In this document: positions 41,685 through 60,421 of the stretch, one piece after another
How positions within the stretch are numbered: position 1 is the stretch's first letter
How the letters are laid out: every line of letters begins with the position of its first letter
Origin: Mycolicibacterium porcinum
GTDB lineage: Bacteria > Actinomycetota > Actinomycetes > Mycobacteriales > Mycobacteriaceae
Direction of reading: 5' to 3'
DNA: 64,000 nucleotides
Assembly (NCBI GenBank): GCA_002086835.1
Contig: MVIG01000008.1
Location: forward strand, 186,001 to 250,000
Program-made: the position numbers and the translations under genes
Notes under the pieces: generated by a model
What the model was told of the DNA's origin: nothing
The model's input: the letters and a program-made list of their open reading frames with translations, nothing else
Database searches by the model: none

Positions 41685-43112
41685 TCAGCTGTCCGAATCG
41701 GCGGAAGCCTTCCCGGGCCCGGCGGTGTCACGCGAAGCACTTGGCGCCCCGACACTCTCGGACACCTTCTTGGCGGCACCCGTGAGGCTGCCGACCGAAG
41801 ACTTCACCGTGGACCTGAGCTGATCGGCGGCATCCGACACCTGCTCGCCGGTGCGCTTGGCGTCGGCGAAGGCCTTTCCGGGCCTGACCAGGTTGCCGGC
41901 CCTCAGGTCGGTGGCACCGTTGACGCGTGCCGCGGAGGTCGCCTTCCGGGTCGCGCTGTCGCGATCGCCGCCGGCCACCGCGGGCGCTTCCTTCGGGTCT
42001 GCCACCACGGTGTCCAACGGCTTCAGCATGCTCGTGGCCGAAGTCGTGTCCGGGGCAACGCTCTTGACCGTGTTCGACACCTTGTCGGTGAGCTCCGAGA
42101 CCGGATCGGTCTCCGGGTTCCCCACCTTGTCGAAGACCTTGCCGACCCGCTTGATGACCTCGGCGTTGACGGCCCGGCTGAACTTGGCCATCGACAACGA
42201 CGCATCGGCCACACTGCGGTTGATCGCGGTGGCGACCTTGATCGGGTCACCGGTGGCGAACGAGTCCGTGGCCTGCTTCACGGCGGCTTCGAGCTGGCGG
42301 GTCAGGGTCCGCACCTGCAACCCGACCTCATGCCCGAAGGTCGGCTCGGGGCTGAACCGCTGGCCGTTCCAGTCCACCAGCGTCCAGCCGTCCTCGGGGT
42401 TGCCCTCGATGACGACATAGTCGGTGTTGCCCAGCGCGTGCTGACTCAGCAGCATGCCCTTCTCCGCCAGCGTGAGGTTCTTCGCGTTCATCATGGTCCA
42501 GAACATGATGGTGCCGCCGTGGGAGAACACGATGACGTTGCGATCCCCGTTGTCGTACATGGTCTTCAACGCACCATCGACACGGGCGTCGAACTCATTG
42601 CCGTCGATCGAACCCGGGATGCGCTCGCCGAGCTGACCGGCGAACGCCCACGCGATGGGCGCCTTGAGGTAGCCGCCCAGGGCACCGCTCTCGGGCGTGC
42701 CCTCGTAGTCGCCCGCCTCGATCTCCTGCAGGCCGGGCAACACCTGGATCGGCAGGCCGAGATAGGCCGACATCGGTTCTGCGGTCTGCTGGGTTCGGAT
42801 CATCTGCGATGCGTAGATGGCGTCGTAGTTGTTGTCGCCCAGCTTGTCGACCACTGCCTCGGCCTGCTCCCGGCCCAGCGGGGTGAGCGACGGACCGGGC
42901 GTCGAGGTGTCGATGTTCCCCGACGTGTTGCCTGCAGACTGGCCGTGCCGCACGAAGGTGACCCGCATGTTCTCCGCGGCCCACGCGGGCAGCACGGACA
43001 TCACGAAGAAGCCGAAGGCGGTCAGCACGATGCCGAGGCCTCTCCATGTCGTTCTCGAACGGCGACGCACAGCCGGTACGGCACCGTTGTCGAACCTGCT
43101 CTGTCGGTCCAT
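41685..43112 (-). CDS. Exported histidine phosphatase-like protein with long helical tail
   Basis: 475 residues. A signal sequence or anchor (about 25-46, GLGIVLTAFGFFVMSVLPAW) ends at AWA-AE. The phosphoglycerate-mutase-like domain carries VTFVRHGQSAGNTSG with the catalytic histidine, the second histidine in VIVFSHGGTIMFW, and EIEAGDYEG. From about residue 270 a lysine, alanine and serine-rich tail runs for about 200 residues, with VSELTDKVSNTVKSV-like heptads (possible coiled coil). ATG at 43112 with GGGAGAGGAA. Function unknown; it marks the left edge of the region absent from the M. tuberculosis order. Confidence 0.78.
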   Translation of the reverse strand: MDRQSRFDNGAVPAVRRRSRTTWRGLGIVLTAFGFFVMSVLPAWAAENMRVTFVRHGQSAGNTSGNIDTSTPGPSLTPLGREQAEAVVDKLGDNNYDAIYASQMIRTQQTAEPMSAYLGLPIQVLPGLQEIEAGDYEGTPESGALGGYLKAPIAWAFAGQLGERIPGSIDGNEFDARVDGALKTMYDNGDRNVIVFSHGGTIMFWTMMNAKNLTLAEKGMLLSQHALGNTDYVVIEGNPEDGWTLVDWNGQRFSPEPTFGHEVGLQVRTLTRQLEAAVKQATDSFATGDPIKVATAINRSVADASLSMAKFSRAVNAEVIKRVGKVFDKVGNPETDPVSELTDKVSNTVKSVAPDTTSATSMLKPLDTVVADPKEAPAVAGGDRDSATRKATSAARVNGATDLRAGNLVRPGKAFADAKRTGEQVSDAADQLRSTVKSSVGSLTGAAKKVSESVGAPSASRDTAGPGKASADSDS

Positions 43113-43466
43113 TTCCTCTCCCTCTATTAGGTTGTCGAGCCCGCGGTAGCCGCGGCCCGGATATGCCCGGTCGAATACGACTGCGCAGCGGCGGATTTGA
43201 CCGGTGTGTCGCCCGCCTCACCGTGCCGGGCCATGTGATCGTGCGCACTCACCGAACTTCCAGCAGCGGCAGTCTCGCTCAGCGGTACAAGATTCTGAGG
43301 TCTGGTGTAGCGGGGCCGACACGCCGTCGTCAGGACCTCAATCGTGTTGGCCGAGAGCCGGATTCCGGGAATCCCGCGCGGCACATGCGCACCGGCGCCG
43401 GCGCCGATGTGGTGCGGTGAGGCACGACGACCTGCGCCGGTCGCTGTCCAACGGCGTGGGGGCGAC
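43113..43466. other. 354-nt region between the phosphatase gene and the esterase remnant, no gene found
   Basis: Holds the upstream region of the phosphatase gene and no reading frame I can support. Short frames exist on both strands but look random. No operator-quality palindrome was noticed. It is probably the scar of the deletion that removed the front of the esterase gene at 43467-43673. Confidence 0.5.
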
Positions 43467-43673
43467 GGTGTGTCCGTGGGCTTCGACCCGCTGCGGACCG
43501 AAGGTGAGGCCTATGCCGAACCCCTTGCCGAACAGGGTGTTCCGGTGCTGCACCGGGCTTACCCCGGCGCCATCCACGGGTTCATGACCATGCCGTCGCT
43601 GATCCTCGGCGGCACCGCCACGCGGCAGGTGTGCGCCGATATCCGCGCGATACTGGACCGCGGGGCCCGCTAG
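43467..43673 (+). pseudogene. 3' remnant of an alpha/beta-hydrolase (HSL-type) esterase
   Basis: About 68 residues match only the C-terminal end of hormone-sensitive-lipase-like esterases: SVGFDPLRTEGEAYAEPLAE, with the catalytic aspartate, and HRAYPGAIHGFMTMPSLI, with the catalytic histidine. The HGGG and GDSAGG parts are missing, and sequence upstream in the same frame (43344-43466) does not resemble the family. It overlaps the stop of the monooxygenase gene by four nt. A truncated gene at the edge of the catabolic island. Confidence 0.7.
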
Positions 43674-45316
43674 GCGGTCAGATCCTGGTGGATGTCGAAG
43701 CCCTTGTAGCCGGCCGCGGCGACGTCGGCGATGATCTCGCCGTACACACCGAACCCGCCGACGAACGGCATGAACACCCGCGGCTTGCCCGGGATGTTCG
43801 CCCCGAGGTACCACGAATTCGCCTGTGGCATGAGCGTTTCAGCGGCACGCCGGGTGCATTCGTCCACCCACTCGGCCGCCGCGTCCGCGCGGGCCTCGAT
43901 CGCCGGAGCGCCCTGGGCGTCGAGATGGGCGATCGCGTCGGCCACCCAGTTCAGGTGCAACTCGGAGTGCAACACCATGTTGGCCAACACAGACGGGGCG
44001 CCGGGACCGGCGATGTTGAACAGGTTCGGGAAGCCCGGAACCCCGAGGCCGAGGTAAGTGATCGGCCCTGCGGCCCAGGCCTCGTTGAGGGTCCGGCCGG
44101 CGCGGCCCACCACGTTGAGCTTCTGGACCGAACCGGTCATCGCGTCGAATCCGGTGGCCAGCACGAGTGCATCGAGATCGTAGTGCGCCTCGGTGGTATC
44201 CAGGCCGGAGGCGTCGATCCGCTCGATCGGCGTGGCCCGCAGATTCACCAGTGCGACGTTGTTCCGGTTGAAGGTCTGGAAGTAGTTGTCGTCGGTGCAG
44301 ATTCGCTTGGCACCGATCGGATGATCCTTCGGGATCAACACGTCGGCCACCGCGGGATCGTCGATCACGGCCCGCACCTTCTGCTCCCAGAACAGCCGCG
44401 CGGTGTCGTTGGCCTCGATGGTGACCAGCTGGTCCGGGAACGCCTTGGAGAACAACACACCGCCGAGCTCCCAACGCCGCTCGTAGGTCTGCCGCAACTC
44501 CTCGGCGGAGACGTCGAGGGCGGACTTGGGATGAGGCTGATGCGGTGAGCCGCCGCCGCTGAGCATCGAGAGTCTGCGCCGCTCGGCATATCCGGCCTTC
44601 TGGGCCGCGCGCGTCTCATCGTCGAGGGGGACGTTGCCGGCGGGCACGCTGTAGTTCGGCGTGCGCTGGAAGACGTAGAGCTGGGCGGCTTCCCTGGCTA
44701 TGCACGGGATCGCCTGGATACCAGAGGATCCGGTGCCGATCACACCGACCCGCTTACCGGTGAAATCAACGCCTTCGTGCGGCCAGTGCGCGGTGTGGTA
44801 GACCTGCCCGGCGAACGAATCGAGGCCCTCGATGTCCGGGATGTTGGCGTTCGACAGGGGCCCGATCGCCAGAATGCAGAAGCGCGCGGACACCGCGTCG
44901 CCACGGTCGGTACGGACCTGCCAGCGCAGCGTCTTCTCGTCCAGCACCATGTCGGTCACGCGGGTCTCGAAGGAGATGTCGCGGCGCAGGTCGAACCGAT
45001 CGGCCACGTGGTCGAGGTAGGCCAGGATCTCCGGCTGGGTGGCGTACTTCTCGGTCCAGTCCCACTCCTGCTCGAGGTCGGGGTCGAAAGAGTAGGAGTA
45101 GTCGACGCTTTCGACGTCGCACCGAGCGCCCGGATAGCGGTTCCAGTACCAGACGCCGCCCACGCCGGCGGCGGTCTCGAACACGCGCACCGAAAGGCCT
45201 TGCCCGCGAAGGCGATGCAGCGCGTACAGTCCGGCGAAACCGGCTCCCACCACAACGACATCCACCTCGGCGGTGGTTTTCTCGGCGGTACCTGACGGAG
45301 CTGGCTGGGCTGTCAC
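43670..45316 (-). CDS. Type I Baeyer-Villiger flavin monooxygenase
   Basis: 548 residues with two Rossmann motifs, GAGFAG (24-29, FAD) and GTGSSG (194-199, NADPH), flanking the diagnostic fingerprint FxGxxxHxxxWP at 168-179 (FAGQVYHTAHWP). Length and sequence suit the cyclohexanone/cyclododecanone monooxygenase branch. Uses NADPH and O2 to convert a ketone to an ester or lactone. GTG at 45316 with AAAGGC. It is divergent from the SDR gene at 45749, whose product could supply the ketone. The substrate is not known. Confidence 0.92.
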   Translation of the reverse strand: MTAQPAPSGTAEKTTAEVDVVVVGAGFAGLYALHRLRGQGLSVRVFETAAGVGGVWYWNRYPGARCDVESVDYSYSFDPDLEQEWDWTEKYATQPEILAYLDHVADRFDLRRDISFETRVTDMVLDEKTLRWQVRTDRGDAVSARFCILAIGPLSNANIPDIEGLDSFAGQVYHTAHWPHEGVDFTGKRVGVIGTGSSGIQAIPCIAREAAQLYVFQRTPNYSVPAGNVPLDDETRAAQKAGYAERRRLSMLSGGGSPHQPHPKSALDVSAEELRQTYERRWELGGVLFSKAFPDQLVTIEANDTARLFWEQKVRAVIDDPAVADVLIPKDHPIGAKRICTDDNYFQTFNRNNVALVNLRATPIERIDASGLDTTEAHYDLDALVLATGFDAMTGSVQKLNVVGRAGRTLNEAWAAGPITYLGLGVPGFPNLFNIAGPGAPSVLANMVLHSELHLNWVADAIAHLDAQGAPAIEARADAAAEWVDECTRRAAETLMPQANSWYLGANIPGKPRVFMPFVGGFGVYGEIIADVAAAGYKGFDIHQDLTA

Positions 45317-47322
<2,006 letters not shown>

Positions 47323-47336
47323 TCACCGGAAACGAC

Positions 47337-47375
47337 AACGATGGGCGGCGCCGAGTATCGGCGCCGCCCATCGTT
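47337..47375 (+). terminator. Intrinsic terminator after the SDR pair
   Basis: AACGATGGGCGGCGCCGA (47337-47354) pairs perfectly with 47358-47375, an 18-bp stem with a three-nt GTA loop followed by TTTC on the plus strand. It separates the SDR pair from the convergent monooxygenase gene. Confidence 0.9.
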
Positions 47376-47384
47376 TTTCGTCGG

Positions 47385-48467
47385 TTACGGGGCGACGGCT
47401 CTCGACTCGCCGACCACGGTCGCCAGGCCGACGTGGGCGTCGCGCCACCACCGCTGCACCGGGCTGGTCCGGCGCAGCGCGTCAATGCTTGAGTTACAGA
47501 CGATCTCATCGATCGCCCGCACGGCCCGGCGGGCTGCGGCGATCTGATCGCGCCGCGCACGTGCCCGCATGCCCGGGTCGACCGGTCCGTCCAAGACGCG
47601 ATTGAAGGACGCGGTGAGGGTGTCGAGCAGCGCCAGCCGCGAGGCCCGGATCTCAGCGGCCGCGTGTTCGGAGACCGGGTCCTCGACGTCGGCCGACCCG
47701 ACATGGTGGGCCAGCGCCCCCTCGGCCATGCCGATCACCGCGGCCGTGATGCCCAGCGGCGCAATGGTGCTCAGCGGGATGTGGTAGATCGGACTGCGCA
47801 GACCCGCGTGCCCTGCCGCGGTACCGTCGACGATGCTGTTGTGGTTCAGCAGTCGATGCCCGGGGACGAACACGTCATCGATCGTGATGCTCTTGCTTCC
47901 GGTGCCGATCAACCCGATCGCATCCCAGGATTCCTCGACGATGCTCAGATCTGACCGTGGCACAAGCGAATAGCCGAGTCCGTCGGGGTCGCCCGCGCCG
48001 ACCACGCGGGCACCGACGACCACCCACTCACAGTGGTCGATGGCCGCCACCGACCGCCACTCTCCGGAGAGCCGGTATCCGCCGTCGACGGGCAGGAGCA
48101 CTCCGGAAGGCGTGTGCGCCGAGGCGATCCAGACGTCGGAGTCGGCCTCCCACACCTCGTCGCGCAGTCGCCGGTCAGCCGAGGCCAACGCCCAGGGCGG
48201 CACACCGACAGAACCGGCGACCCACCCTGCTGCCCCGTCCAGCCGAGCGATCTCGAGAACAGCCTCGGCGAAATCGCCGGGATGGGTCTCGATGCCGCCG
48301 AACTCGGCGGGCTGCAGCATGTGCATCACCCCGGACTCACGCAGTGCGTCGACCGCCCGGTTGTCGAGCCGGCCCAGCATCTCGTTGACGGGCCCGAGTG
48401 CCCTGATCCGATCGGCATTCTCATAGATGCCGTCCAGAACGTCCCTGGTCATTTCAACACCACGCAT
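47385..48467 (-). CDS. Acyl-CoA-dehydrogenase-like flavin monooxygenase (HsaA/HpaH type)
   Basis: 360 residues from the ATG at 48467, with AAGGGAG upstream. Fold of acyl-CoA dehydrogenases with the type 2 C-terminal domain, as in HsaA and DszC, two-component flavin monooxygenases. Seen: VMHMLQPAEFGGIETHPGDF, ARLDGAAGWVAGSVGVPPW, YRLSGEWRSVAAIDHCEWVVVGA, and DVFVPGHRLL. No flavin reductase gene is nearby. It is divergent from an IclR gene with a perfect palindrome between them. The substrate is unknown. Confidence 0.83.
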   Translation of the reverse strand: MRGVEMTRDVLDGIYENADRIRALGPVNEMLGRLDNRAVDALRESGVMHMLQPAEFGGIETHPGDFAEAVLEIARLDGAAGWVAGSVGVPPWALASADRRLRDEVWEADSDVWIASAHTPSGVLLPVDGGYRLSGEWRSVAAIDHCEWVVVGARVVGAGDPDGLGYSLVPRSDLSIVEESWDAIGLIGTGSKSITIDDVFVPGHRLLNHNSIVDGTAAGHAGLRSPIYHIPLSTIAPLGITAAVIGMAEGALAHHVGSADVEDPVSEHAAAEIRASRLALLDTLTASFNRVLDGPVDPGMRARARRDQIAAARRAVRAIDEIVCNSSIDALRRTSPVQRWWRDAHVGLATVVGESRAVAP

Positions 48468-48497
48468 CCGAAACTCCCTTGTCGCGCGTATCGCGTG

Positions 48498-48514
48498 CTG
48501 ACCACCATGGTCAG
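48498..48514. promoter_or_regulatory. IclR operator candidate
   Basis: CTGACCA-CCA-TGGTCAG, perfect 7-bp arms, 31 nt upstream of the minus-strand monooxygenase ATG (48467) and 83 nt upstream of the iclR GTG (48597). Size and shape fit IclR-family sites. Confidence 0.6.
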
Positions 48515-48596
48515 GTACGTCACTGAAGTGCTTGCGGCAGCATCCCGCTGAGTGAGATCGTGAGTGACCCACTGTTCGACGTCCTAGGGGGCGCAG

Positions 48597-49478
48597 GTGC
48601 CGGCTTCCACCAGCAACGCAACATCACGGCCGCGCGCCGAACAACGCGACACGGCTGTGTCGATGGTGGATCGCGTCGCCTTGATCCTCAACGTCTTCGA
48701 CGAACCCGGCAAGCACCTGCGGCTGGACCAGATCGCGGGCCGCACCGGGCTGCCCCGGTCCTCGGTGCACCGGATTCTCAAACAGCTGCACAGTGCCGGG
48801 CTGCTGCAACACCGTCCCGACGGCTACGCGCTGGCCGCGTCCCCGCTGCCCGTGACCAGGATGGTCGACCATTCGCAGCTGCGCAGCGTGGCGTCGCCGA
48901 CGTTGTCCCGCCTGCATGCCGATACCGGGCTCGTGGTGCACCTGGGGGTGCTCTTCGGCGGTGACGTGGTCTACCTCGACAAGGTGGCCGGCCGTAACAG
49001 CGCCGTGGTTCCCACCCGCGTCGCCGGGCATTCGCCCGCGCACGCCAGTGCCCTGGGAAAGACCATGCTGGCCCAGCTTCCCGCCGAAGAAGTGGACGCG
49101 GTCCTGGGGCCGCGGCTGACCCGATCCACCCGGTCCACCATCAGCGATCTGGAAACCCTGCACCGGGAACTGGCCCGGATCCGGTCCCGGCACGGGCTGG
49201 CCTACGACAACGAGGAACTGGCGATCGGGCTGACCAGTGTGGCGGCCCCGCTGCGCTCGGCCGACGGTGAGGTGGCGGGCCTGTCGCTGACCGGCGCGGT
49301 GCCGTTGCACCGCCTACAGCGCACCGCCCCGTTCGTGATCCGGGCGGCCCGGCACATATCGCAGCAGCTGGGCTCCCAAGAAACCGGCGCCCGGGACACC
49401 GCCCCGTCGGCCGCGCAGGCCACCGACAACCTGTTGTCCCGGGTGTTGCGGACGTTGACCTCTGACGCGTGGGTCTGA
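48597..49478 (+). CDS. IclR-family transcriptional regulator
   Basis: 293 residues: N-terminal winged HTH (about 20-85, LRLDQIAGRTGLPRSSVHRILKQLHSAGLLQ), then an effector domain (about 105-260) with VHLGVLFGGDVVYLDKVAG, HSPAHASALGKTMLAQLP and the usual GLAYDNEELAIGLTSVAAPL. GTG at 48597 with AGGGGG. It stands between two minus-strand monooxygenase genes and is convergent with the second. Probably controls the ring-degradation genes; such regulators often sense aromatic or short-chain acids. Confidence 0.9.
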   Translation: MPASTSNATSRPRAEQRDTAVSMVDRVALILNVFDEPGKHLRLDQIAGRTGLPRSSVHRILKQLHSAGLLQHRPDGYALAASPLPVTRMVDHSQLRSVASPTLSRLHADTGLVVHLGVLFGGDVVYLDKVAGRNSAVVPTRVAGHSPAHASALGKTMLAQLPAEEVDAVLGPRLTRSTRSTISDLETLHRELARIRSRHGLAYDNEELAIGLTSVAAPLRSADGEVAGLSLTGAVPLHRLQRTAPFVIRAARHISQQLGSQETGARDTAPSAAQATDNLLSRVLRTLTSDAWV

Positions 49479-49482
49479 CCGG

Positions 49483-51674: not shown

Positions 51675-53060
51675 ACCTGCCCGGGCCGCCAGCTCCGCCA
51701 AGACCCCCGGCACCCGGTCGGCGATGCCGTACGGGTCCGACACCTGATCACCACAGGTGAGCACGCAGATCGCCATCTCGTCGCGGTAGCTCCACCCCGT
51801 GAAGTTCAACCCCATCGGGAACACGATCGGCCCCGACGAGATGAGCTGCTCGATCGGCGCGCCGCCCCAGTACAGCGTGTTCTGCGGGCCGCGCATGTTG
51901 GAGGCGATCAGGCTGAACATCGGGCGGCGCTTCATCTTGGCGCCGAGGATCGGCAGCACCCGCGAGTACAACCAGAACAGCGGCCAGTACTCCATCCAGT
52001 CGTGCTGCAGCCAGGCGTCCCGCTCGGCCTGTACCTCCCGCGCGGTGCGGGTGGCCGAGGCGATCGCCGCCAGCCGCTCCACCGGATCGGCGATGTGCGT
52101 TGCGAGGTCGACGTTCCAGCGCGCCACCTTGTTGCCCCACTCGGCCTCGGTTTCCTCCGGGCGCATCGAGACGGGCACCACCGCGGTCATGCTCTCCTCG
52201 CCTAGCTTCCCGTTCTCGGCCAGGTAGTCACGCAGCGCTCCACCGCAGATGGCGAGGAAGACGTCGTTGATGGTGACGCCGAAAGCCTTTGACACCCGCT
52301 TGATCTGCGTCACGTCGCAGCGCCGGTAGGCGAACCTGCGGCTGGCCGAGAACGGTTCGTTGAACGGCATGGCCGGTGCGGCGAACGCTTCCGCGTAGCC
52401 CGGCTTTCCCGCCTTCTGCCGCCGCCGGATCACCCCGGTGACCGCGACAGTGCGGGCGATGATGCTCGGGAAACGGGCCAGCGCGGCGAGCTGGTGGCGC
52501 AGCACCAGCGGCCACCAGACCCACGGTGCCGGGCGCCGCTCGTTCGGCAGCGGGGTCGACCGCGGCTGCGGCAGCGGAGTCTGCGGATCAGCGCTGTAGA
52601 GGGTCTCCAGCAGCCGCAGCGACGCGGTGCCGTCGGCGACGGCATGGTGGATCTTGAGCACCAGCGCGACGCGGCCGTCGGCCAACCCTTCGACCAACCA
52701 CAGTTGCCAGGCCGGCCGGTCGCGGTCCAGCCCGACTTCGAAGATCTCCCCGATCGTCGCGGCGAGCTCCTCGTCGCCGCCGGGTGCGGGTGCGGTGGTC
52801 CGCTGCAGGTGATACCCGATGTCGATCTGCGGCCGCGATACCCACCACGGCCGGCCGAAACCCACTCGCGGGGTCAGTAACTGCCATTGCAGGGGCTCGA
52901 CGTGGTCGACCCACCCCTGCACCGCGGACTTGAGCCGGTCGAACGTGAGCGGCTCGGTCATCTGGGTCGGGTCGAGCACGACGGCCTTCATCGTGTGCTG
53001 CGGTTGGACCGAGCTTTCCCACGCCAGGAAGCTGTTGTCCTCACCCTTCAAACGCCGCAT
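51621..53060 (-). CDS. Wax ester synthase/diacylglycerol acyltransferase (WS/DGAT, Tgs-like)
   Basis: 479 residues starting at the ATG at 53060, with GAGGG seven nt upstream (a GTG two codons earlier is possible). Active-site HHxxxDG is present as KIHHAVADGTASL; NDVFLAICGGALRDYL and SNMRGPQNTLYWGGAPIEQL are the other family blocks. Makes triacylglycerol or wax ester from acyl-CoA. It is divergent from the acyl-CoA ligase gene. It may store acyl chains produced by the surrounding pathway. Confidence 0.9.
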   Translation of the reverse strand: MRRLKGEDNSFLAWESSVQPQHTMKAVVLDPTQMTEPLTFDRLKSAVQGWVDHVEPLQWQLLTPRVGFGRPWWVSRPQIDIGYHLQRTTAPAPGGDEELAATIGEIFEVGLDRDRPAWQLWLVEGLADGRVALVLKIHHAVADGTASLRLLETLYSADPQTPLPQPRSTPLPNERRPAPWVWWPLVLRHQLAALARFPSIIARTVAVTGVIRRRQKAGKPGYAEAFAAPAMPFNEPFSASRRFAYRRCDVTQIKRVSKAFGVTINDVFLAICGGALRDYLAENGKLGEESMTAVVPVSMRPEETEAEWGNKVARWNVDLATHIADPVERLAAIASATRTAREVQAERDAWLQHDWMEYWPLFWLYSRVLPILGAKMKRRPMFSLIASNMRGPQNTLYWGGAPIEQLISSGPIVFPMGLNFTGWSYRDEMAICVLTCGDQVSDPYGIADRVPGVLAELAARAGSPGSSLLDASDRQAVSG

Positions 53061-53138
53061 TTTCACCCTCGCTTGTCCTCACCGCCGTACGGCACTTTCT
53101 GTGGCTGCCATCACTCTTATCCAAACGTGTGTCCCAGT

Positions 53139-53164
53139 AGACAAGCTGTCTCGCACAGCGAGAC
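53139..53164. promoter_or_regulatory. Two overlapping palindromes upstream of the acyl-CoA ligase gene
   Basis: AGACA-AGC-TGTCT (53139-53151) and GTCTCG-CACAG-CGAGAC (53148-53164) overlap by four bases. They lie at -69 to -44 from the leaderless start (53208) in the divergent region shared with the DGAT gene. TetR-type sites look like this. No dedicated regulator gene is adjacent. Confidence 0.45.
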
Positions 53165-53207
53165 TCTGCACCCCGCGACCTGCGCTGCGGCACCTACGGT
53201 TTGCGCC

Positions 53208-54854
53208 ATGAAGCGAGCCATTCCGCGCCCTGCCGGCCTCGTCGCCAGGGCAAACCGGTTCCGGGTGATCGCCCGCAGCATCGCCGTACTGCGTGAGTCG
53301 GGACTGTCCGGTGGGGCTGCCGACGGCATCCGCCAGGCCAAGCTGGTCCGCCAGTTCGGCGGCTTCGCGGCCGTCATCGAAAGCGCCGCCACCCGCGACC
53401 CCAACGCCATCGCCATCACCGACGAATGGGGCGACGTGACGTACGCCCAGCTCAACGACCGAGTCAATGCCCTCGCCCGGGCCTGGAACTGCCGGGGAAT
53501 CGGAGCGGGATCGGTCATCGCGGCGCTGTGCCGCGATCATCGCGGACTCGTGACCATCCTGGCCGCGGCCGGCAAGGTCGGGGCGCAACTGCTGCTGATG
53601 AACACCGGCTTCGCCAAGCCGCAGCTGGCCGATGTCGCGGCCCGCGAGAAGGTGAACGTGCTGATCCACGACGAGGAGTTCACCGACCTGGTCGGCGCCA
53701 TCGATCCGGGCGTGCGGCGCTTCCTGGCGTGGACCGACGAGCGCTCGACCACCGACGTCGAGGGCTCGCTGGAGGGCCTGATCGCCGCCACCTCACCGGC
53801 CCCGGTGGCCGCGCCGGCCAAGCCCGGCGGCATGACCCTGCTGACCAGTGGCACCACCGGCACGCCCAAGGGTGCCCCGCGCGGCAAGACCTCTCCCCTG
53901 TTCTCGGCGCAGCTGCTGGACCGGGTGCCGCGCCGCCGCGGGCAGACCTGCATGCTGGCCGCACCGATGTTCCACGGCACCGGCCTCGGCCAGGCGGTGC
54001 TGTCGCTGGCCCTGGGCAACCGCCTGGTGCTGCGCCGCAAGTTCAACCCCGAGGAGACCCTGCGCGCGGTCCAGAACCACGGCTGCGACGTGCTCGTCGT
54101 CGTCCCCACGATGCTGCAGCGAATACTGGCCCTGCCCAAGGAAGTTCGCGAGAAGTACGACACCGCATCGCTCAAGATCATCTTCGTCTCCGGTTCGGCC
54201 ATGCCACCCGACCTGGTCAAGCGCACCCTCGCCGAGTTCGGCCCGGTGCTCTACAACCTCTACGGCTCAACCGAACTCGCGGTCATGACGGTCGCCATGC
54301 CCGAGGACCTGCAGCACGATCCGCGCACCGCGGGCCGCGCCCCGGTCGGATGCGCGGTGCGCCTGTACGACGATGCGGGCAGGGAGATCACCGAACCGGG
54401 CGTGATCGGACGGGTTTTCGCCGGCAGCGACGTGAGCTTCGCCGGTTACACCGACGGCCGCACCAAGGAGTCGATCGACGGATTGCAGAGCAGCGGCGAC
54501 GTCGGTCACTTCGACGACACCGGCAGGCTCTACATCGACGGCCGTGACGACGACATGGTGATCTGCGGTGGCGAGAACGTCTACCCGCTGGAGGTGGAGA
54601 ACCTGATCACCAGCCATCCCGAGGTCGACGAGGTCGCGGTGATCGGCGTCAGCGACGACGATTTCGGTCAACGGCTCAATGCCTACGTGGTCTTGGTCGA
54701 CGGTGCCACCCTGGCCGCCGACGACATCAAGGACTACGTGCGGGCGAACCTGGCCCGATACAAGATCCCCCGCGACGTCGAGTTCCTGTCCGAGCTGCCC
54801 CGAAACGCCACCGGCAAGGTGCTTCGCGGCGAGCTGGCCGGGGGTGTCAAGTGA
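53208..54854 (+). CDS. Acyl-CoA ligase (FadD type)
   Basis: 548-residue ANL-superfamily ligase that activates an acid to its CoA thioester via an acyl-AMP. P-loop-like LLTSGTTGTPKGAPRGK, YNLYGSTELAVM, SSGDVGHFDDTGRLYIDGRDDD and the C-terminal catalytic lysine in PRNATGKVLRGEL are all intact. ATG at 53208 with -10 TACGGT (53195-53200) seven nt upstream, leaderless. The esterase gene overlaps its stop (GTGA), heading a five-step-looking unit with two SDRs. Confidence 0.93.
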   Translation: MKRAIPRPAGLVARANRFRVIARSIAVLRESGLSGGAADGIRQAKLVRQFGGFAAVIESAATRDPNAIAITDEWGDVTYAQLNDRVNALARAWNCRGIGAGSVIAALCRDHRGLVTILAAAGKVGAQLLLMNTGFAKPQLADVAAREKVNVLIHDEEFTDLVGAIDPGVRRFLAWTDERSTTDVEGSLEGLIAATSPAPVAAPAKPGGMTLLTSGTTGTPKGAPRGKTSPLFSAQLLDRVPRRRGQTCMLAAPMFHGTGLGQAVLSLALGNRLVLRRKFNPEETLRAVQNHGCDVLVVVPTMLQRILALPKEVREKYDTASLKIIFVSGSAMPPDLVKRTLAEFGPVLYNLYGSTELAVMTVAMPEDLQHDPRTAGRAPVGCAVRLYDDAGREITEPGVIGRVFAGSDVSFAGYTDGRTKESIDGLQSSGDVGHFDDTGRLYIDGRDDDMVICGGENVYPLEVENLITSHPEVDEVAVIGVSDDDFGQRLNAYVVLVDGATLAADDIKDYVRANLARYKIPRDVEFLSELPRNATGKVLRGELAGGVK

Positions 54855-55816
54855 GCGATTCCGACACCATGAAGCGCGAGGTCGCCGGCCGGATGGGCGA
54901 CGCGTTCGCACCGATCGTCGACGGCGTCCTGGATCCGATCTCAGCGGCGGCCGAGGTTCGGGCCCGGCTCAAGGCCAGCCGCCGGCCGGCCAGGCCCGTA
55001 CCGGTGGGCAACGTCGAGGACCGAACCGTTCCCGGTCCCGCAGGTGAGATTCCGGTACGGATCTACCATCCTCTCGACTCCGCCGACGCCGGCACCGGAT
55101 TACCCGTCCTCGTCTACTTCCACGGCGGCGGGTTCGTGCTGTGCGACCTCGACTCACACGATTCGTGCTGCCGCAGGCTCGCCAACGGCATTGGCGCCAT
55201 TGTGGTTTCGGTCGACTATCGACTGGCGCCCGAACATCCGTATCCCGCCGCGGTCGACGACGCCTTGGCGGCAACCGAATGGGTGGCAGCCCATGCCGGT
55301 GAACTCGGCGGCGACCCGGCCCGGCTCGTGGTCGCGGGCGACAGTGCGGGCGGCAACCTGGCGGCCGTCGTCGCGATGACGGCGCGGGACCGCGGCGGCC
55401 CGACGATCGCGTTCCAGGTGTTGATCTACCCGGTGGTCGACCAGCGCCGCAAATCGTCGCTGTCCAGCCCGCACACCAAGAGTGGCGTGCTGACCGCCGA
55501 GCACATGCAGTGGTTCACCGCGCAGTACCTCGGCGACAGCGGCGCCCAGTCCGAGGTGTCGGCGTCGCCGATTCTCGGTGACATGACCGGACTTCCGGAT
55601 GGGCACGTGCTGACCGGAGCCCTTGATCCGCTGTGCGAGGAGGGCGAGGAATACGCGCGCATGCTCGCCGCGGGCGGCGCGAAAGTCAGCGTCCGGCGCT
55701 ACGACCGCGGATTCCACGGCTTCTTCAACCTCGCCGACCATCTCCCCGCCGCCGCCGAGGCCACCGAAGACGTGTGCGCCGTCGTCCGCGCCGCGCTCAA
55801 CCACCCGAACGACTGA
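54851..55816 (+). CDS. HSL-family alpha/beta-hydrolase esterase
   Basis: 321 residues. Oxyanion motif HGGG (91-94), nucleophile GDSAGG with Ser165, acid in TGALDPLCEEG, histidine in DRGFHGFFNL; complete and probably active. GTG at 54851 overlaps the ligase stop by four nt. In a Baeyer-Villiger pathway an esterase of this sort would open the lactone. The remnant at 43467-43673 is the tail of a related gene. Confidence 0.9.
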   Translation: MSDSDTMKREVAGRMGDAFAPIVDGVLDPISAAAEVRARLKASRRPARPVPVGNVEDRTVPGPAGEIPVRIYHPLDSADAGTGLPVLVYFHGGGFVLCDLDSHDSCCRRLANGIGAIVVSVDYRLAPEHPYPAAVDDALAATEWVAAHAGELGGDPARLVVAGDSAGGNLAAVVAMTARDRGGPTIAFQVLIYPVVDQRRKSSLSSPHTKSGVLTAEHMQWFTAQYLGDSGAQSEVSASPILGDMTGLPDGHVLTGALDPLCEEGEEYARMLAAGGAKVSVRRYDRGFHGFFNLADHLPAAAEATEDVCAVVRAALNHPND

Positions 55817-55848
55817 GACCACACCTGTCACCCACTGAAAGGCAACCC

Positions 55849-56646
55849 ATGAAGCTGAGGAACTCCCGCGCTCTGGTCACCGGCGCGAGCCGCGGCCTGG
55901 GCAAGAGCATCGCCGAGGTGCTGGCCGCACGCGGCGTCGAGGTCGCCGTGGTGGCGCGCGACGCCGAGTCGCTCAACCTGCTCGCCAAGCAACTGAAAGG
56001 CAAGGCCTACCCGACCGACCTGGGTGACCCGGAAGCGGTGGAGGGCCTCATCGATCGCGTCGAGGCCGACGGCCCCATCGACATCGTGATCAACAACGCC
56101 GGCATCGACCACGTCGGCCGGTTCCATCAGGTCGCCCCCGAACAGATTCGCAATCTGCTGCAGGTCAACCTGGCGGCGCCGATGGAGATCTGCCGCCAGG
56201 TGATCCCGCGGATGGTGCAGCGCGGGCGTGGTCACATCGTCAACGTGTCGTCCATGGGCGCCATCTCGCAGGGGCCGGGACTGACCCTGTACGGCACGTC
56301 GAAGGCGGGGCTGAGCCACTTCACCGCGGGAATCCGCGGTGAGCTCCGAGGCAAACCCGTGGGCACCACGCTGGTGCAGATCGGCGAGGTCAAAACCGAC
56401 ATGATCGACCACATCCGGGCTTTCGGCCCGGCCCGGCGCACCATCGAGCGGTCCATCCGGTGGCGGATGATTCCGCGCGAGTCCCTGGAGCCGGTCGACG
56501 TTTCGGTGGCCATCGCCGAGGCCATCGAGCGCAACCGTCGCCATGTCATCCTGCCGCGCAACATCGTTCCGATGGCCAAGTTCACCGAGTTCCCGCGCCG
56601 CATCTCCGAACTCATGCTGACCGGCATCGACCAGGACAACGACTGA
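55849..56646 (+). CDS. Short-chain dehydrogenase/reductase
   Basis: 265 residues. VTGASRGLGKSIAEVL binds the cofactor and VAVVARDAES ends beta-2 with an Arg, favouring NADP(H). NNAGI, NVSSMGA and YGTSK supply the active site. A basic C-terminal stretch (RRTIERSIRWRMIP) may contact membrane, as in lipid-active SDRs. ATG at 55849 with GAAAGGC. The stop overlaps the next SDR start by one base. Confidence 0.87.
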   Translation: MKLRNSRALVTGASRGLGKSIAEVLAARGVEVAVVARDAESLNLLAKQLKGKAYPTDLGDPEAVEGLIDRVEADGPIDIVINNAGIDHVGRFHQVAPEQIRNLLQVNLAAPMEICRQVIPRMVQRGRGHIVNVSSMGAISQGPGLTLYGTSKAGLSHFTAGIRGELRGKPVGTTLVQIGEVKTDMIDHIRAFGPARRTIERSIRWRMIPRESLEPVDVSVAIAEAIERNRRHVILPRNIVPMAKFTEFPRRISELMLTGIDQDND

Positions 56647-57419
56647 TGGCGGGCGTCGACCTGTCCGGCAAGGTCGCGATCCTCACCGGCGCCGCCCGCG
56701 GGCAGGGGGAAGCCGAAGCACGGTTGTTCGCCGCACTCGGCGCCAGGGTGGTGCTGACCGACGTGCTCGTCGAGGAAGGTGAGCGCGTCGCCGCGTCCAT
56801 CGGCCCGGCCGCTCGCTTCGTCCGCCTTGACGTCGGCAGCGAAACCGATTGGCGCACAACGGTCGATACCGCAGTCGCCGAGTTCGGCCGCGTCGACGTA
56901 CTGGTCAACAACGCGGCCATCTGCAAGGTGGTGCCGTTGGCCGAGCAGGATGTCGACGGATTCGAGCAGATGCTGCGGGTCAACCTGATCGGCGCGTTCC
57001 TCGGCATGCAGGCCGTCACGGAACCCATGCGGGCCGCCGGCGGCGGATCGATCGTGAACATCTCGTCGCAGGCCGGCGTGCAGGGCCTGGCCGGTTACAC
57101 CGCGTACGGCGCCTCCAAGTGGGGCCTGCGCGGCATGTCGAAGGTGGCGGCGATCGAGCTGGGCCCGTTGGGTATTCGCGTCAACACCGTGTATCCCGGC
57201 ATGATCGACACGCCGATGATCGCCCACCTCGCGGTGGAACGCGGGCTCGGTGGCCATCCCGGTGCGCCACTCACCCGGGTGGGCACTCCCGAGGAGGTCG
57301 CCGAGGTCGTCGCATTCCTCGCCTCGGACGCGTCGTCGTACATCACCGGTGCGGATCTGACCGTCGACGGCGGCGCCAGTGCCGGCCGGATTCCGGTGAC
57401 GCCGGTCCACACCAACTGA
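56646..57419 (+). CDS. Short-chain dehydrogenase/reductase, paralogue of 45749-46525
   Basis: 257 residues: LTGAARGQGEAEARLF, VVLTDVLVEEG, NNAAI, NISSQAG, YGASK. The C-terminal half (KWGLRGMSKVAAIELGPLGI and VYPGMIDTPM) aligns with the SDR at 45749, so the two are paralogues of one hydroxysteroid-dehydrogenase-like group. TGATG coupling to the SDR before it. Last gene of the fadD-esterase-SDR-SDR unit; convergent with the zinc alcohol dehydrogenase. Confidence 0.88.
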   Translation: MAGVDLSGKVAILTGAARGQGEAEARLFAALGARVVLTDVLVEEGERVAASIGPAARFVRLDVGSETDWRTTVDTAVAEFGRVDVLVNNAAICKVVPLAEQDVDGFEQMLRVNLIGAFLGMQAVTEPMRAAGGGSIVNISSQAGVQGLAGYTAYGASKWGLRGMSKVAAIELGPLGIRVNTVYPGMIDTPMIAHLAVERGLGGHPGAPLTRVGTPEEVAEVVAFLASDASSYITGADLTVDGGASAGRIPVTPVHTN

Positions 57420-57434
57420 TCCGCAGAGCAGGCG

Positions 57435-58499
57435 TCACTGCCCCGGCAGCACCAGGATCTTGACGTGTGCCTCGGGATCACGGAGCGACTCGAACGCGTC
57501 TTCCAGGCCGTCCAGACCGACGCGGCCCGTGATGATCGCCTCGGCGTCGATCTCGCCTGCCGCCAACCGGGCCAGCACCTTCTCGTAGGCCTGTTCGTAG
57601 GGGCCGTGCCCGAAGTTGATCGCGATCTGCCGCATCTGCGCCACCACCGGGATGATGGTCTCCTCGGCGAACGGCGAGGCCACCACCTGGATGCGCGAAC
57701 CCCACGGCAGGGTGTGGGTCAGTGTGTTCAGCGTGCCGACGCGCCCACTGCACTCGTACGCGATCAGCAGGCCCTGCCGATCGGCCCCGGCGGTCTTCCC
57801 ACTGCTTCTCAGTTCGTTGTACCGGGCGATCGGATCCTGCTCGTTGGGGTCGACGACGATGTCGGCTCCCATCTTGGCGGCGAGCTCACGACGTTTGGGT
57901 GACGGTTCCGACGCGATCACGGTGTGCGCGCCCGCCGCTTTCGCTGCCAGGATCGTGCCCAGACCGATCGATCCGCAGCCGATCACCAGGGCGGTGTCCG
58001 CAGGCGTCAGGCCGGACTGCTGCATGTGCATCTCGCCCACGTGCAGCGGCTCGGCCAGGGCGGCGTGCTCCAGCGACAGACCGTCAGGCACGTGCCGGAC
58101 CCAGAAGGCGTCGACGACGATGAATTCGCCGAAGGCCCCGTGGTATTGGTTCGAGTAGCCGATGATCGTCGGCAGCCCGGTGCCTTGCTCGGTGGTGATG
58201 CCGAGCCCGGTGACTCGGTCGCCTTCAGCGAAATCCGTTACTCCCGGACCGGTTTCGATGACGATGCCGGCCCACTCATGACCCAGTACGACCGGGCGGG
58301 TGGCATCGAACACCGCGAACGGATAGCCCGCACCAGCGGCCACCTCGACGAACCGGCACGGATCCTTCGACATGCTCAGGTCGCTGCCGCAGATGCCGCA
58401 CGCGGCCACCTTGATGCGCAGCTGACCGGGCCCGGTGGCGGGCGGTTCGCTGACATCGGCCACGGTGAACCGACCGTCGAGGTACTCGGCGGCGCGCAT
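57435..58499 (-). CDS. Zinc-dependent medium-chain alcohol dehydrogenase
   Basis: 354 residues. Catalytic zinc ligands in ACGICGSD and GHEWAG; cofactor motif VIGCGSIGLGTILAAKAAGA, with SEPSPKRRELA after it. The four-cysteine structural zinc lobe of classical ADH was not seen. The ATG at 58499 shares one base with the stop of the LLM gene, so the two form one operon read from the TetR-type operator. Probably oxidises an alcohol formed by, or feeding, the monooxygenases. Confidence 0.88.
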   Translation of the reverse strand: MRAAEYLDGRFTVADVSEPPATGPGQLRIKVAACGICGSDLSMSKDPCRFVEVAAGAGYPFAVFDATRPVVLGHEWAGIVIETGPGVTDFAEGDRVTGLGITTEQGTGLPTIIGYSNQYHGAFGEFIVVDAFWVRHVPDGLSLEHAALAEPLHVGEMHMQQSGLTPADTALVIGCGSIGLGTILAAKAAGAHTVIASEPSPKRRELAAKMGADIVVDPNEQDPIARYNELRSSGKTAGADRQGLLIAYECSGRVGTLNTLTHTLPWGSRIQVVASPFAEETIIPVVAQMRQIAINFGHGPYEQAYEKVLARLAAGEIDAEAIITGRVGLDGLEDAFESLRDPEAHVKILVLPGQ

Positions 58500-59695
58500 C
58501 ACGCCCCCTGTCCGGCGAGCTGCTCGGCAGGCTGGCCGTAATAGTCGGTGTGCGCCTTGGTGATTGCGCCGATGAGCCCGCCGAGCAGGTACTGGCTGTT
58601 GTCCTCTGCGAACTGCAGGCTGGCCTGCCGGCCCACGTTGCGCTTCTTGAAGTGCGGGATGACCTCGGAGGCGAACAGCTCGTAGCTGCGCTTGGTGTCC
58701 TCCCAGCCGGCCATGTCGACATGCAAGATCAGCAGGGTGCCGAATCCGCCGGTCTTCTCGATGAGCCGCTGGATCTGCGCGATCGCGTCGTCGGGGGTGC
58801 CGATGATGACCTGACCGAACTCGCCCAGGTTGTCGGTGCGCCACTGGTTGATGATGCCCTCGGGGGTCTGCGCCCAGTCGGGCTTGATGCCCTGTTGCCG
58901 GTTGACGTATTCGGCGATGGCATGGATCCGGCGGCTGACGGCGCGCTCGGCCTCGGCCCGGGTCTCGGCGAGGAACATCGGGTTGACCAGGCGCCAGGTG
59001 GAACGGTCGGCCTGATGCCCGTGCTCGGCCGAAACCTTCTCGTAGACACCCCAGTTGCGGTCGAGGACGTCGAATCCGGTCGGCGAACTGGCCGCCAGTG
59101 ACAGTAGGGACAGTCCGTGCGTGCCGGCGAGCACCGACCCGTTCGGGGAGATGGTCGACGCGGTCGCCACCTCGATGCCCGCCGGATCGTAGGTGGGCAA
59201 CTGGGCGCGGGCATCGCGCAGGGTGAACCAGTCGGTCTCCATGTCGACGACCTCGCCGCGCAGCAGGCGAAGTACCGCCTCCAGCGCTTCGCCCTGCATC
59301 CGGCGCTGGTCGACGGGGTTGATCCCCATCATGTGCGCATCCAGCGGGATCTTGCCCGGGCCGGTGCCCACAATCAGCCGGCCGCGCGTCTGCAGGTCGA
59401 GTTGGGTGATGCGGTCCGCGGTGATCAGTGGGTGGTGGTAGGGCAATGACATCACGCCTGTGCCGAACCGGATGCGCTCGGTGCGCTCGGCCGCCGCGGC
59501 GATGAACATGTCCGGCGCAGGGACGATTTCGGACCCGGTGGAGTGGTGCTCACCCATCCACGCCTCGTCGAATCCGAGATGGTCGAGGTGCTCCATCAGG
59601 TCGATGTCGCGCCGCAGCTGCAGTGCCGGGTCGGCGTTGAGGGGGTGATAGGGCGCCAGGAACGCCCCGAACTTGATCGAACTCGAATTCCACAT
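58499..59695 (-). CDS. LLM-class flavin monooxygenase resembling limonene 1,2-monooxygenase
   Basis: 398 residues, luciferase-like TIM barrel: FGAFLAPYHPLNADPALQL, GFDEAWMGEHHSTGSEIVP, RIRFGTGVMSLPYHHPLITADR and VIIGTPDDAIAQIQRLIE. The opening and overall length resemble rhodococcal limonene monooxygenase (LimB) rather than F420-reductases. ATG at 59695 with -10 TAGCGT (59703-59708) seven nt upstream, leaderless; candidate TetR sites sit at -18 to -44. First gene of the LLM-ADH operon. The substrate is inferred, not shown. Confidence 0.82.
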   Translation of the reverse strand: MWNSSSIKFGAFLAPYHPLNADPALQLRRDIDLMEHLDHLGFDEAWMGEHHSTGSEIVPAPDMFIAAAAERTERIRFGTGVMSLPYHHPLITADRITQLDLQTRGRLIVGTGPGKIPLDAHMMGINPVDQRRMQGEALEAVLRLLRGEVVDMETDWFTLRDARAQLPTYDPAGIEVATASTISPNGSVLAGTHGLSLLSLAASSPTGFDVLDRNWGVYEKVSAEHGHQADRSTWRLVNPMFLAETRAEAERAVSRRIHAIAEYVNRQQGIKPDWAQTPEGIINQWRTDNLGEFGQVIIGTPDDAIAQIQRLIEKTGGFGTLLILHVDMAGWEDTKRSYELFASEVIPHFKKRNVGRQASLQFAEDNSQYLLGGLIGAITKAHTDYYGQPAEQLAGQGA

Positions 59696-59712
59696 GCCCG
59701 GGACGCTATCTG

Positions 59713-59739
59713 GATCGAATGATTGGATCAAGTGATCCA
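59713..59739. promoter_or_regulatory. TetR operator candidates before the LLM gene
   Basis: GATCGAATGATTGGATC (59713-59729) is a palindrome at 14 of 17 positions, GATCnAATnATTnGATC. TGGATCA-AG-TGATCCA (59724-59739) is perfect over 7-bp arms and overlaps it. Together they cover the -18 to -44 region of the LLM promoter, 44 nt from the end of the tetR gene. Confidence 0.6.
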
Positions 59740-59782
59740 TAAATTTCGCCGTAGAAAGCTCCCGTCGGACAGGACGGATCGG

Positions 59783-60421
59783 TCAGGAACCGAGCAGGCG
59801 ATCGACCCCGCCGACGACGAAACACACCAGGTCGTCGTAGAAGTCGCGCAGCTCGGTCTCGTCGAGCCGGCTGCCGTTGCGGCGCCACTCGTCGGCCCGG
59901 CTCAGCGCCTGGATGAAATTCATGATCGAGATGGCCCAGCGCAGTTCCAGACGCGCCGGGTCTGAGTCGGGAAAGGCCCTCTGCACCTGGGTGAACAACT
60001 CGTCGGGCAGGTGCTGCTCGGTGTCCAGCAGCACCGGATTGTTCTCCTGCGAGATCTGCGCGATGATCTTGATCCAGCGCATGCCCCGGACCCGGTGGCG
60101 CAGCAGCAGTTTCAGATACGGCTCGGTGACCGCACGGACGAGAGCGTCGGCGCCCGGCGCGACCGGATCGGCCGCGAGCACCGCCACGTTGGCCGCGATC
60201 TCGTCGCGCACCGGCGCACCGATGTCGGTGAGCACCGCCCGCAGCAGCTCATCTTTGGATCCGAAGTGATAGTGCACCGAGGCGGCGCCGAGGCCCGCGG
60301 CGGCATTGACCGCCCGCACCGACACCGCATCCACCCCTTGGGCGGCGAACAGGCGCTCGGCAGCCTTCACCAGGCGCAGCCGGGTGGCCGCGCCCTGCCG
60401 ATTCTGGGCTGCGCCGTACAC
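59783..60421 (-). CDS. TetR-family transcriptional regulator
   Basis: 212 residues. HTH at about 15-60 (RLVKAAERLFAAQGVDAVSV, GLGAASVHYHFGSKDELLRA), then a helical ligand domain with a C-terminal TetR_C-like part (ELRWAISIMNFIQALSRADEW). GTG at 60421. It sits directly upstream of the LLM-ADH operon on the same strand, with overlapping palindromes between. Probably represses that operon until its inducer binds. Right edge of the catabolic island. Confidence 0.9.
   Translation of the reverse strand: MYGAAQNRQGAATRLRLVKAAERLFAAQGVDAVSVRAVNAAAGLGAASVHYHFGSKDELLRAVLTDIGAPVRDEIAANVAVLAADPVAPGADALVRAVTEPYLKLLLRHRVRGMRWIKIIAQISQENNPVLLDTEQHLPDELFTQVQRAFPDSDPARLELRWAISIMNFIQALSRADEWRRNGSRLDETELRDFYDDLVCFVVGGVDRLLGS

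Follow-up and report, generated by a model that had tools for sequence, protein, structure and literature searches.

The interval between the sigma factor genes sigA and sigB of Mycolicibacterium porcinum (NCBI GenBank assembly GCA_002086835.1, contig MVIG01000008.1) contains a set of genes that travels as a block, and we interpret this block, with a probability of roughly 0.55, as a transferable catabolic regulon whose main job would be the catabolism of a steroid ketone. The analysis covered 64,000 nucleotides (positions 186,001 to 250,000 of the contig, hereafter the window, to which all coordinates refer unless a contig is given). The block (41685-57419, unit 1) comprises a histidine phosphatase (HisPhos), a type I Baeyer-Villiger monooxygenase (BVMO), four SDRs, an IclR-family regulator, three HsaA-like proteins, a WS/DGAT acyltransferase, a FadD-type acyl-CoA ligase, and an HSL-type esterase, and is followed by a zinc alcohol dehydrogenase (ADH), a luciferase-like monooxygenase (LLM), and a TetR regulator (57435-60421, unit 2). 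The regulon and the two-unit structure are, in our judgment, highly probable. A first-pass annotation of the same DNA had proposed one 18.7-kb island for alicyclic or terpenoid ring cleavage; the catabolic content between the sigma genes and the alcohol-ketone-ester logic of the set were retained, whereas the single island gave way to two units and the terpenoid or limonene assignment was abandoned. What had been a loose list of enzymes becomes a predicted regulon with a defined candidate operator, and mycobacterial relatives of the progesterone-oxidizing steroid monooxygenase (STMO) gain a genetic context.

Pfam and NCBIfam scans were run on 20 proteins, from a polyphosphate glucokinase (39138) and sigA (40121) through a gene of the YihY/BrkB family (62259). 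Together with diagnostic motifs, these scans confirmed the enzymes listed previously (BVMO, four SDRs, zinc ADH, HSL esterase, FadD-type ligase, WS/DGAT, and LLM), and both the IclR and the TetR regulators were recognized by Pfam.

Conservation and mobility of the block

The distribution of unit 1 was followed in a sample of 195 genomes of the genus (G, L, and C numbers denote genomes, loci, and contigs, G000 being M. porcinum). It was found as a block in 17 of them, nine times between sigA and sigB and eight times elsewhere. The order BVMO, SDR1, SDR2, (HsaA1), IclR, HsaA2, HsaA3, WS/DGAT, FadD, HSL, SDR3, SDR4 is kept, single losses aside, in the M. brisbanense group, M. kyorinense, M. hubeiense, Mycolicibacter (where FadD and SDR2 are lacking), and others, and from BVMO to SDR4 the mycobacterial proteins are mostly 60-88% identical (41-58% for HsaA3). 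This order is kept at different sites. A separate arrival of each gene, the outcome named by the first-pass annotation as speaking against a common pathway, was not borne out for HisPhos to SDR4. The ratio dN/dS, calculated against three relatives of the M. fortuitum group, ranged from 0.04 to 0.26 across the genes of the interval, HsaA3 being the one exception (0.35-0.41). Base composition does not change abruptly at the block, and the window yielded no tRNA.

The marker HsaA3 occurs in 26 of the 195 genomes, 17 with the block and nine with only a mini-module, HisPhos-IclR-HsaA2-HsaA3 (L173-L181). Nine of the 26, all of them block genomes, have it between sigA and sigB, and 16 have it at another place; in G033 the sigma genes are on different contigs. 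In the list of BVMO relatives, the nine mini-module genomes had none that was more than 68% identical to the window BVMO. HisPhos (branch 1; 41685-43112, minus strand; Pfam His_Phos_1, 113.6 bits), which occupies the left end of the block and had gone unnamed in the earlier annotation, has SDR2 on one side and IclR on the other in L020/L097, while in L022/L098 and L023/L099 it is placed between SDR1/SDR2 and IclR. It adjoins IclR in all nine mini-modules and is for this reason considered a genuine member of the block. Its N-terminus is hydrophobic (judged by eye), its C-terminus is rich in Ala and Lys, and the protein is perhaps secreted.

A shared palindrome and the candidate IclR regulon

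The promoters of unit 1 have in common a 17-bp palindrome with a consensus of about GTCTCRCTSAGYGAGAC, which was derived by comparing the intergenic regions of the window for a common word and was then refined. Four sites are present in the window: GTACCGCTGAGCGAGAC upstream of HisPhos (site 1, 43272-43288, minus strand; exact match to the degenerate pattern GTNYCGCTGNGYGRGAY), TTCCCGCTGAATGAGAC in the divergent BVMO/SDR1 promoter (site 2, 45620-45636, plus strand; found by position weight matrix (PWM) and not among the pattern matches with at most one mismatch), ATCCCGCTGAGTGAGAT in the divergent HsaA1/IclR promoter (site 3, 48542-48558, plus strand; one mismatch, and PWM), and GTCTCGCTGTGCGAGAC in the divergent WS/DGAT-FadD promoter (site 4, 53148-53164, minus strand; exact pattern match, and PWM). 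A weaker operator-like site, GTACCGGTGAGTGGGAC, lies near the BVMO start (45385-45401, minus strand), with one mismatch to the degenerate pattern and a PWM score below 13.4 bits. At 13.4 bits, the four window sites compare with 0, 0, 0, 1, and 0 in five Markov shuffles, an enrichment that is partly circular because the motif was discovered in the window, the test being its occurrence in other genomes. Within the 6.96-Mb genome, GTNYCGCTGNGYGRGAY has two exact matches, both in the block (sites 1 and 4), and 29 matches with at most one mismatch, of which four are in the block (including the weaker site at 45385) and 25 elsewhere; a reversed-pattern control gave nine. The pattern CCGCTGARYGAGA with at most one mismatch had three matches vs. 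0.49 expected, and a broad pattern, CGCTGNRYGAGAC with two mismatches, was rejected as being at chance level (42 matches vs. 47 expected).

For the external test, a PWM built from the window's four sites only was applied to 25 loci outside the M. fortuitum group; promoters were counted in 16 block genomes outside this group (one locus each) and in the nine mini-modules, leaving out duplicate-id loci, the short M. talmoniae locus L024, as well as Nocardia, Gordonia, Skermania, and Rhodococcus. The 25 loci hold 64 sites of at least 14 bits, compared with 2, 6, and 4 after shuffling; at 16 bits or above there are 40, compared with 0, 1, and 0 in three shuffles. Sites of at least 14 bits are found upstream of BVMO in 13 of 16 cases and of SDR1, which for the most part shares this intergenic region, in 12 of 16, of WS/DGAT in 9/14, FadD in 4/8, HSL in 5/10, and HisPhos in 3/3, and also upstream of IclR (4/6) and HsaA (2/5) of a paralogue cluster described below. 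All nine mini-modules have a site upstream of HisPhos and none upstream of IclR, HsaA2, or HsaA3 (0/9 each), and the Markov controls for these promoter counts ranged from 0/60 to 3/320. The shared palindrome thus suggests an IclR regulon, the motif being conserved in other genomes at the HisPhos, BVMO/SDR1, and WS/DGAT promoters. We infer that the IclR protein of the block, its probable regulator (48597-49478, plus strand; Pfam IclR_C, 116 bits, and HTH_IclR), probably acts through the palindrome as a candidate operator, to which the paralogous IclR could also bind.

Steroid-type relatives, substrate, and competing explanations

The enzyme that points to steroids is the BVMO (43670-45316, minus strand; Pfam FMO-like, Pyr_redox, and NAD_binding_8, as expected for Rossmann-type nucleotide-binding domains), in which the fingerprint FxGxxxHxxxWP reported by the first-pass annotation was confirmed at residue 168. 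Its best PDB match is STMO of Rhodococcus rhodochrous (4aos/4aox; 928 bits), followed by PAMO (629 bits) and the best cyclohexanone monooxygenase (508 bits), and it is 73.7% identical to the Rhodococcus STMO over 532 residues and 54.6% identical to PAMO. In a quick maximum-likelihood tree (99 rows, SH-aLRT only, 28 open forks), BVMO and STMO fall into one clade (support 98), apart from PAMO and from a 67% identical paralogue in the own genome. The stretch PSVLANMVLHSELH, which we assume to line the pocket, is identical to STMO at 14/14 positions and to PAMO at 7/14 (counted from the alignment). Proteins 91-94% identical to the BVMO are encoded by M. septicum, M. houstonense, M. peregrinum, M. 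senegalense, and M. setense, among others, and on this basis the window probably belongs to the M. fortuitum group. The window BVMO differs from STMO in being one gene of a palindrome-marked block, no gene cluster or regulon having been seen for STMO in the source excerpts used.

Genomic contexts of its relatives point in the same direction. Gordonia, Nocardia (L028, L086), and Skermania carry a BVMO relative together with SDR1 and/or SDR2 relatives, the former (72-79%) adjoining BVMO in Gordonia and Skermania and the latter (59-78%) in all three genera. In Gordonia L041, orthologous BVMO, SDR1, and SDR2 genes are flanked by KshA (PF19298, 314 bits), PadR, and two KstD-like genes (one above its cut-off, 916 vs. 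675 bits, the other just below, 830 vs. 837); the locus also has HsaA-, HsaC-, HsaD-, HsaE-, and HsaG-like genes, with scores below the cut-offs for HsaA (401 vs. 450), HsaC (364 vs. 450), and HsaD (267 vs. 400). A BVMO 86% identical to STMO adjoins HsaA-, HsaC-, and IclR-type genes in R. triatomae L038, and one BVMO lies between a window-type block and an HsaA-HsaC-KstD-like block in L100 and L025. Annotated plasmid neighborhoods of BVMO relatives were of varied catabolic kinds; on R. erythropolis pLRE138, Rieske, acyl-CoA-dehydrogenase-like, VOC, alpha/beta-hydrolase, and IclR genes surround a BVMO.

In M. porcinum itself, the paralogue cluster (L088, G000:C26:521000-540900) contains the second STMO-type BVMO, 67% identical to that of the window, with KshB-like, HsaA, HsaC, KstD-like, IclR, and esterase genes as neighbors. 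HsaC was detected above its curated cut-off on contig C22 (541.8 vs. 450 bits), a second HsaC-type gene is part of the paralogue cluster on C26, and the HsaA matches were all below cut-off (among them a contig-edge fragment spanning half of the profile, 359 bits, and the C26 copy, 367 bits). On these HsaC and HsaA profile matches, a pathway of the 9,10-seco type is plausibly available outside the window. An identity of the paralogue cluster with the C-19+ cluster of M. smegmatis was not established from M. litorale (L171, L172), where the one match beyond the paralogue cluster was to a FAD protein (26%) at a distance of about 30 kb.

Taken at the level of sequence, a steroid-type substrate appears probable, and an action of the BVMO at a C20 ketone, somewhat short of even odds, is put forward tentatively. 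The order of steps that we infer is as follows. The BVMO would convert a ketone (the C20 ketone of a C21 steroid) to an ester, from which the HSL esterase (54851-55816, plus strand; LipP1 344 bits, cut-off 350; motifs HGGG and GDSAG) would free the alcohol. The SDRs would then oxidize this alcohol to a 17-ketone entering the 9,10-seco pathway encoded on C22 and C26. All four have the YxxxK motif: SDR1 (45749-46525; Pfam adh_short_C2, 200 bits), SDR2 (46483-47322, with the true start probably downstream of 46483; adh_short, 164 bits), SDR3 (55843-56646, start approximate; adh_short, 157 bits), and SDR4 (56658-57419, start approximate, the right end of the conserved block; adh_short_C2, 220 bits), all on the plus strand. 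The ligase (53187-54854, plus strand, start approximate) and the WS/DGAT acyltransferase (51621-53066, minus strand; TIGR02946, 381 bits, cut-off 310; HHxxxDG) would probably form or store esters of fatty acids with a hydroxylated intermediate and not activate a ring-fission acid. A ligase for the 'acid to CoA ester' step of the first-pass annotation is present, and its role in that step is doubtful, as it is closest to the FadD2 and FadD12 models (514 and 511 bits, cut-offs 875 and 850) and adjoins WS/DGAT.

Several points weigh against this interpretation. KshA, KstD, a ring dioxygenase, and a flavin reductase were not found in the window block by the Pfam and NCBIfam scans, FadD, WS/DGAT, HisPhos, and HsaA2/HsaA3 are without an obvious place in a progesterone pathway, and BVMOs of this class can be promiscuous according to the discussion of PMC12239570, used here in excerpt. 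Mini-modules exist without the rest of the block, so the original substrate of the regulator may differ, and eight Nocardia BVMO loci (L030-L033, L036, L037, L042, L083) are without other window genes (a 26-27% WS/DGAT match was the only one besides BVMO in the DNA examined). As regards the operator, no site is present upstream of HsaA2 or HsaA3 (0/16 block loci each, 0/25 with the mini-modules), SDR2 (0/8), SDR3 (0/7), or SDR4 (0/6); IclR has one in only 4/16, all from the M. brisbanense group, and autoregulation is therefore not general. It is weak at the Nocardia BVMO promoters (12.1 and 12.6 bits in L028 and L086) and was not found at those of Gordonia L040/L041 and Skermania L027, an 18.5-bit match in Gordonia lying inside the HsaE-like gene and not at the BVMO promoter.

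The HsaA-like proteins deserve separate consideration. HsaA1 (47385-48572, minus strand; 270 bits), HsaA2 (49483-50580, minus strand, start approximate; 310 bits), and HsaA3 (50544-51674, plus strand; 118 bits), the last a degenerate partner, belong by NCBIfam and PDB matches to the same sequence family as HsaA, the 3-HSA monooxygenase oxygenase, and all are below the 450-bit cut-off of NF045629. They had been listed as three acyl-CoA-dehydrogenase-like monooxygenases, and the family was upheld, with most of the ring-hydroxylase residues checked being absent. In an alignment with HPA hydroxylase C2 and HsaA, residues His120, Ser171, and His396 of C2, which we take to be active-site residues, have no equivalent in any of the 14 HsaA1 or 37 HsaA3 rows (Leu stands at the His396 position in HsaA3), and in HsaA2 His396 is kept in 39/39, Ser171 in 0/39 (Thr in its place), and His120 in 2/39; all three are present in 13/13 rows of the paralogue-cluster HsaA. 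These counts are for rows of at least 280 residues, after removal of those with an identical C-terminus and of two broken-frame rows, and include the window twice in HsaA2 and HsaA3. A catalytic His at 'WRDxH' was considered and rejected, as the alignment to C2 places it five residues further on. Due to the loss of active-site residues, a ring-hydroxylating role is not supported, and a further difference from HsaA is that no flavin reductase was found among the 20 scanned proteins. HsaA2 and HsaA3 co-occur in all 25 loci (16 block, nine mini-module), with HsaA3 evolving faster (dN/dS 0.35-0.41 vs. 0.11-0.19 for HsaA2), still below 1; that they form a heteromeric flavoenzyme with a divergent reaction is a guess, and a conserved pair with a dismantled active site poses a biochemical question. 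HsaA1 was seen only in genomes in which HsaA3 lacks the 'WRDxH' His (in G124 this residue is lost and HsaA1 is absent), reflecting either replacement or shared ancestry only.

Among the alternatives, a steroid or polycyclic substrate attacked at a position other than C17/C20 (a ring ketone, with D-ring lactonization, or a triterpenoid or sterol side-chain ketone) is unlikely. The second STMO-type BVMO in the HsaA-HsaC-KstD-like cluster means that two enzymes may divide substrates between them, and FadD with WS/DGAT hints at acyl esters, but the 14-residue stretch of the window BVMO matches STMO, which reportedly does not lactonize androstenedione (excerpt of PMC12239570).

Alicyclic or monoterpenoid ring cleavage, from alcohol through cyclic ketone, lactone, and hydroxy acid to CoA ester, would use the same enzyme classes, and we rate it as quite unlikely. 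A hydroxycyclohexanecarboxylate dehydrogenase model is the best for SDR1 (258 bits) and second-best for SDR4 (236 bits; cut-off 400), and the LLM is 45.9% identical to one encoded on a plasmid of Rhodococcus qingshengii, where it adjoins limC and a gene of the limonene-1,2-epoxide hydrolase family. However, the BVMO is far nearer to STMO than to cyclohexanone monooxygenases and its relatives stand among steroid ring genes, the ligase resembles FadD2/FadD12, and the LLM is outside the operator-bearing unit, with similar LLMs (E <= 1e-90) in 170/195 genomes. The absence of a limonene epoxide hydrolase noted earlier was confirmed, no member of the family being among the 20 scanned proteins (39138-62259). 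A limonene cluster comparable to the rhodococcal pathway, which it resembles in enzyme classes and in the LLM, was consequently rejected. The best gene of this hydrolase family in the genome (G000:C81:282394-282753, 191 bits), which we take to be perhaps an EphG orthologue, is 36.7 kb beyond the LLM and about 32 kb past the window end.

Another arrangement, which would be undescribed and which we find improbable, is that the HisPhos-IclR-HsaA2-HsaA3 core is a regulon of its own. A secreted phosphatase would cleave a phosphate ester to release a hydrophobic alcohol. HsaA2 and HsaA3, obligate partners of which one retains just one catalytic His and the other lacks any, would oxidize the alcohol or make the inducer; the BVMO, SDR, esterase, ligase, and WS/DGAT genes would later have been drawn under the same operator, acting on the released steroid-like alcohol and partly storing it as a fatty-acyl ester. 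Least probable is that FadD, WS/DGAT, HSL, and the SDRs form a lipid or wax-ester module that handles methyl ketones or fatty alcohols, with the BVMO making esters from long-chain ketones. In its favor, the FadD2/FadD12-type ligase, WS/DGAT, and HSL esterase adjoin one operator-like site; against it, steroid ring genes surround the Gordonia relatives of BVMO and SDR1 (71-74%) and of SDR2 (59%).

With regard to known systems, the C-19+ steroid cluster of M. smegmatis is under PadR control. Gordonia L041 resembles it in joining PadR, KshA, KstD-like, and HsaA/C/D-like genes with BVMO, SDR1, and SDR2 orthologues, whereas the window block is linked to IclR, lacks KshA, KstD, HsaC, HsaD, and PadR, and has HsaA-like proteins below the cut-off. 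A C-19+ type cluster of M. smegmatis is mentioned in the excerpted text of PMC5962712, and KshA/KshB/KstD paralogues of this species in that of PMC5270728. Testosterone acetate is formed from progesterone by a BVMO and an LLM in Caenibius tardaugens (PMC12239570, 2025, in excerpt). The window likewise combines BVMO, LLM, and TetR genes within one stretch, but the pdc cluster of C. tardaugens has four genes, a LuxR regulator, and a BVMO 30.4% identical to STMO (same excerpt), whereas no LuxR was found among the 20 scanned proteins, and the LLM and TetR of the window belong to a separate module without operator and are separable from the BVMO. For the Rhodococcus organism, the progesterone pathway is not described according to the excerpted part of PMC12239570. 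The main texts of PMC10049677 and PMC11011972 contain no mention of Baeyer or IclR, and among the matches listed from titles and abstract starts of the open-access literature (subscription papers being outside the scope) there was no IclR-linked steroid-monooxygenase cluster. M. fortuitum is employed to make steroid intermediates from phytosterols (PMC11011972, in excerpt), and an unrecognized steroid-ketone cluster could therefore matter for side products.

The neighboring module and further features

Unit 2 is a neighbor with its own history. It consists of the zinc ADH (57435-58499, start approximate; Pfam ADH_N and ADH_zinc_N), the LLM (58499-59740; Pfam Bac_luciferase, 130 bits), and the TetR regulator (59783-60421; Pfam TetR_N), all on the minus strand. 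LLM orthologues of at least 84% identity occur in 9/195 genomes, i.e., six of the M. fortuitum group plus G148, G156, and G180. In G148 and G156, which lack HsaA3, ADH, LLM, and TetR stand together, either on a contig other than that of sigA or at a distance of over 0.5 Mb from it; in G180 LLM and TetR are on a different contig from the block. The PWM scan of the window gave no operator site of at least 13.4 bits at any of the three genes. Membership of ADH-LLM-TetR in one island did not hold up, given its separate arrival, its occurrence without unit 1, and the missing operator-like site. The relatives of the LLM in 170 genomes, those listed outside the closest nine being 45-50% identical, mean that its resemblance to limonene monooxygenase tells little; its best PDB match is 3,6-diketocamphane 1,6-monooxygenase (86 bits), and the annotated plasmid neighborhoods of its relatives are mixed catabolic contexts. 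In L168 (G148), TetR-LLM-ADH adjoins a PucR-type regulator, an aminotransferase, and an aldehyde dehydrogenase.

A remnant of a second HSL-type esterase gene lies between the HisPhos and BVMO genes (43423-43658, plus strand; blastn of the gap vs. L092/L091/L089). The gene is longer in relatives, the L092 copy being 59% identical to the paralogue-cluster esterase over 324 aa, and fragments are also present in L091. The starts of HsaA2, FadD, SDR3, SDR4, and ADH were over-long in the mechanical list of open reading frames. Part of the M. brisbanense group (L095, L018) has an extra WS/DGAT-like gene (33%) between BVMO and SDR1, and L182 (G013, M. hubeiense-type) is a second IclR-HsaA2-HsaA3 set within the same sigA-sigB interval.

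The left flank is sigA (40121-41611, plus strand; NCBIfam RNA polymerase sigma factor, 882 bits, cut-off 711), and a sigB-type gene is located at G000:C81:249187 (window 63187). The sigA-sigB gap is 21.6 kb in the window, compared to a median of 5.0 kb, and is larger than 10 kb in 15/59 genomes with both genes on one contig, in a non-random sample of 60 in which 26 were picked for HsaA3 and two for LLM. Long intervals were seen in G087 (121 kb), G109 (63 kb), G102 (21 kb), and G125 (16 kb), and those above 10 kb without HsaA3 inside include G102, G125, G050, G088, G092, and G171.

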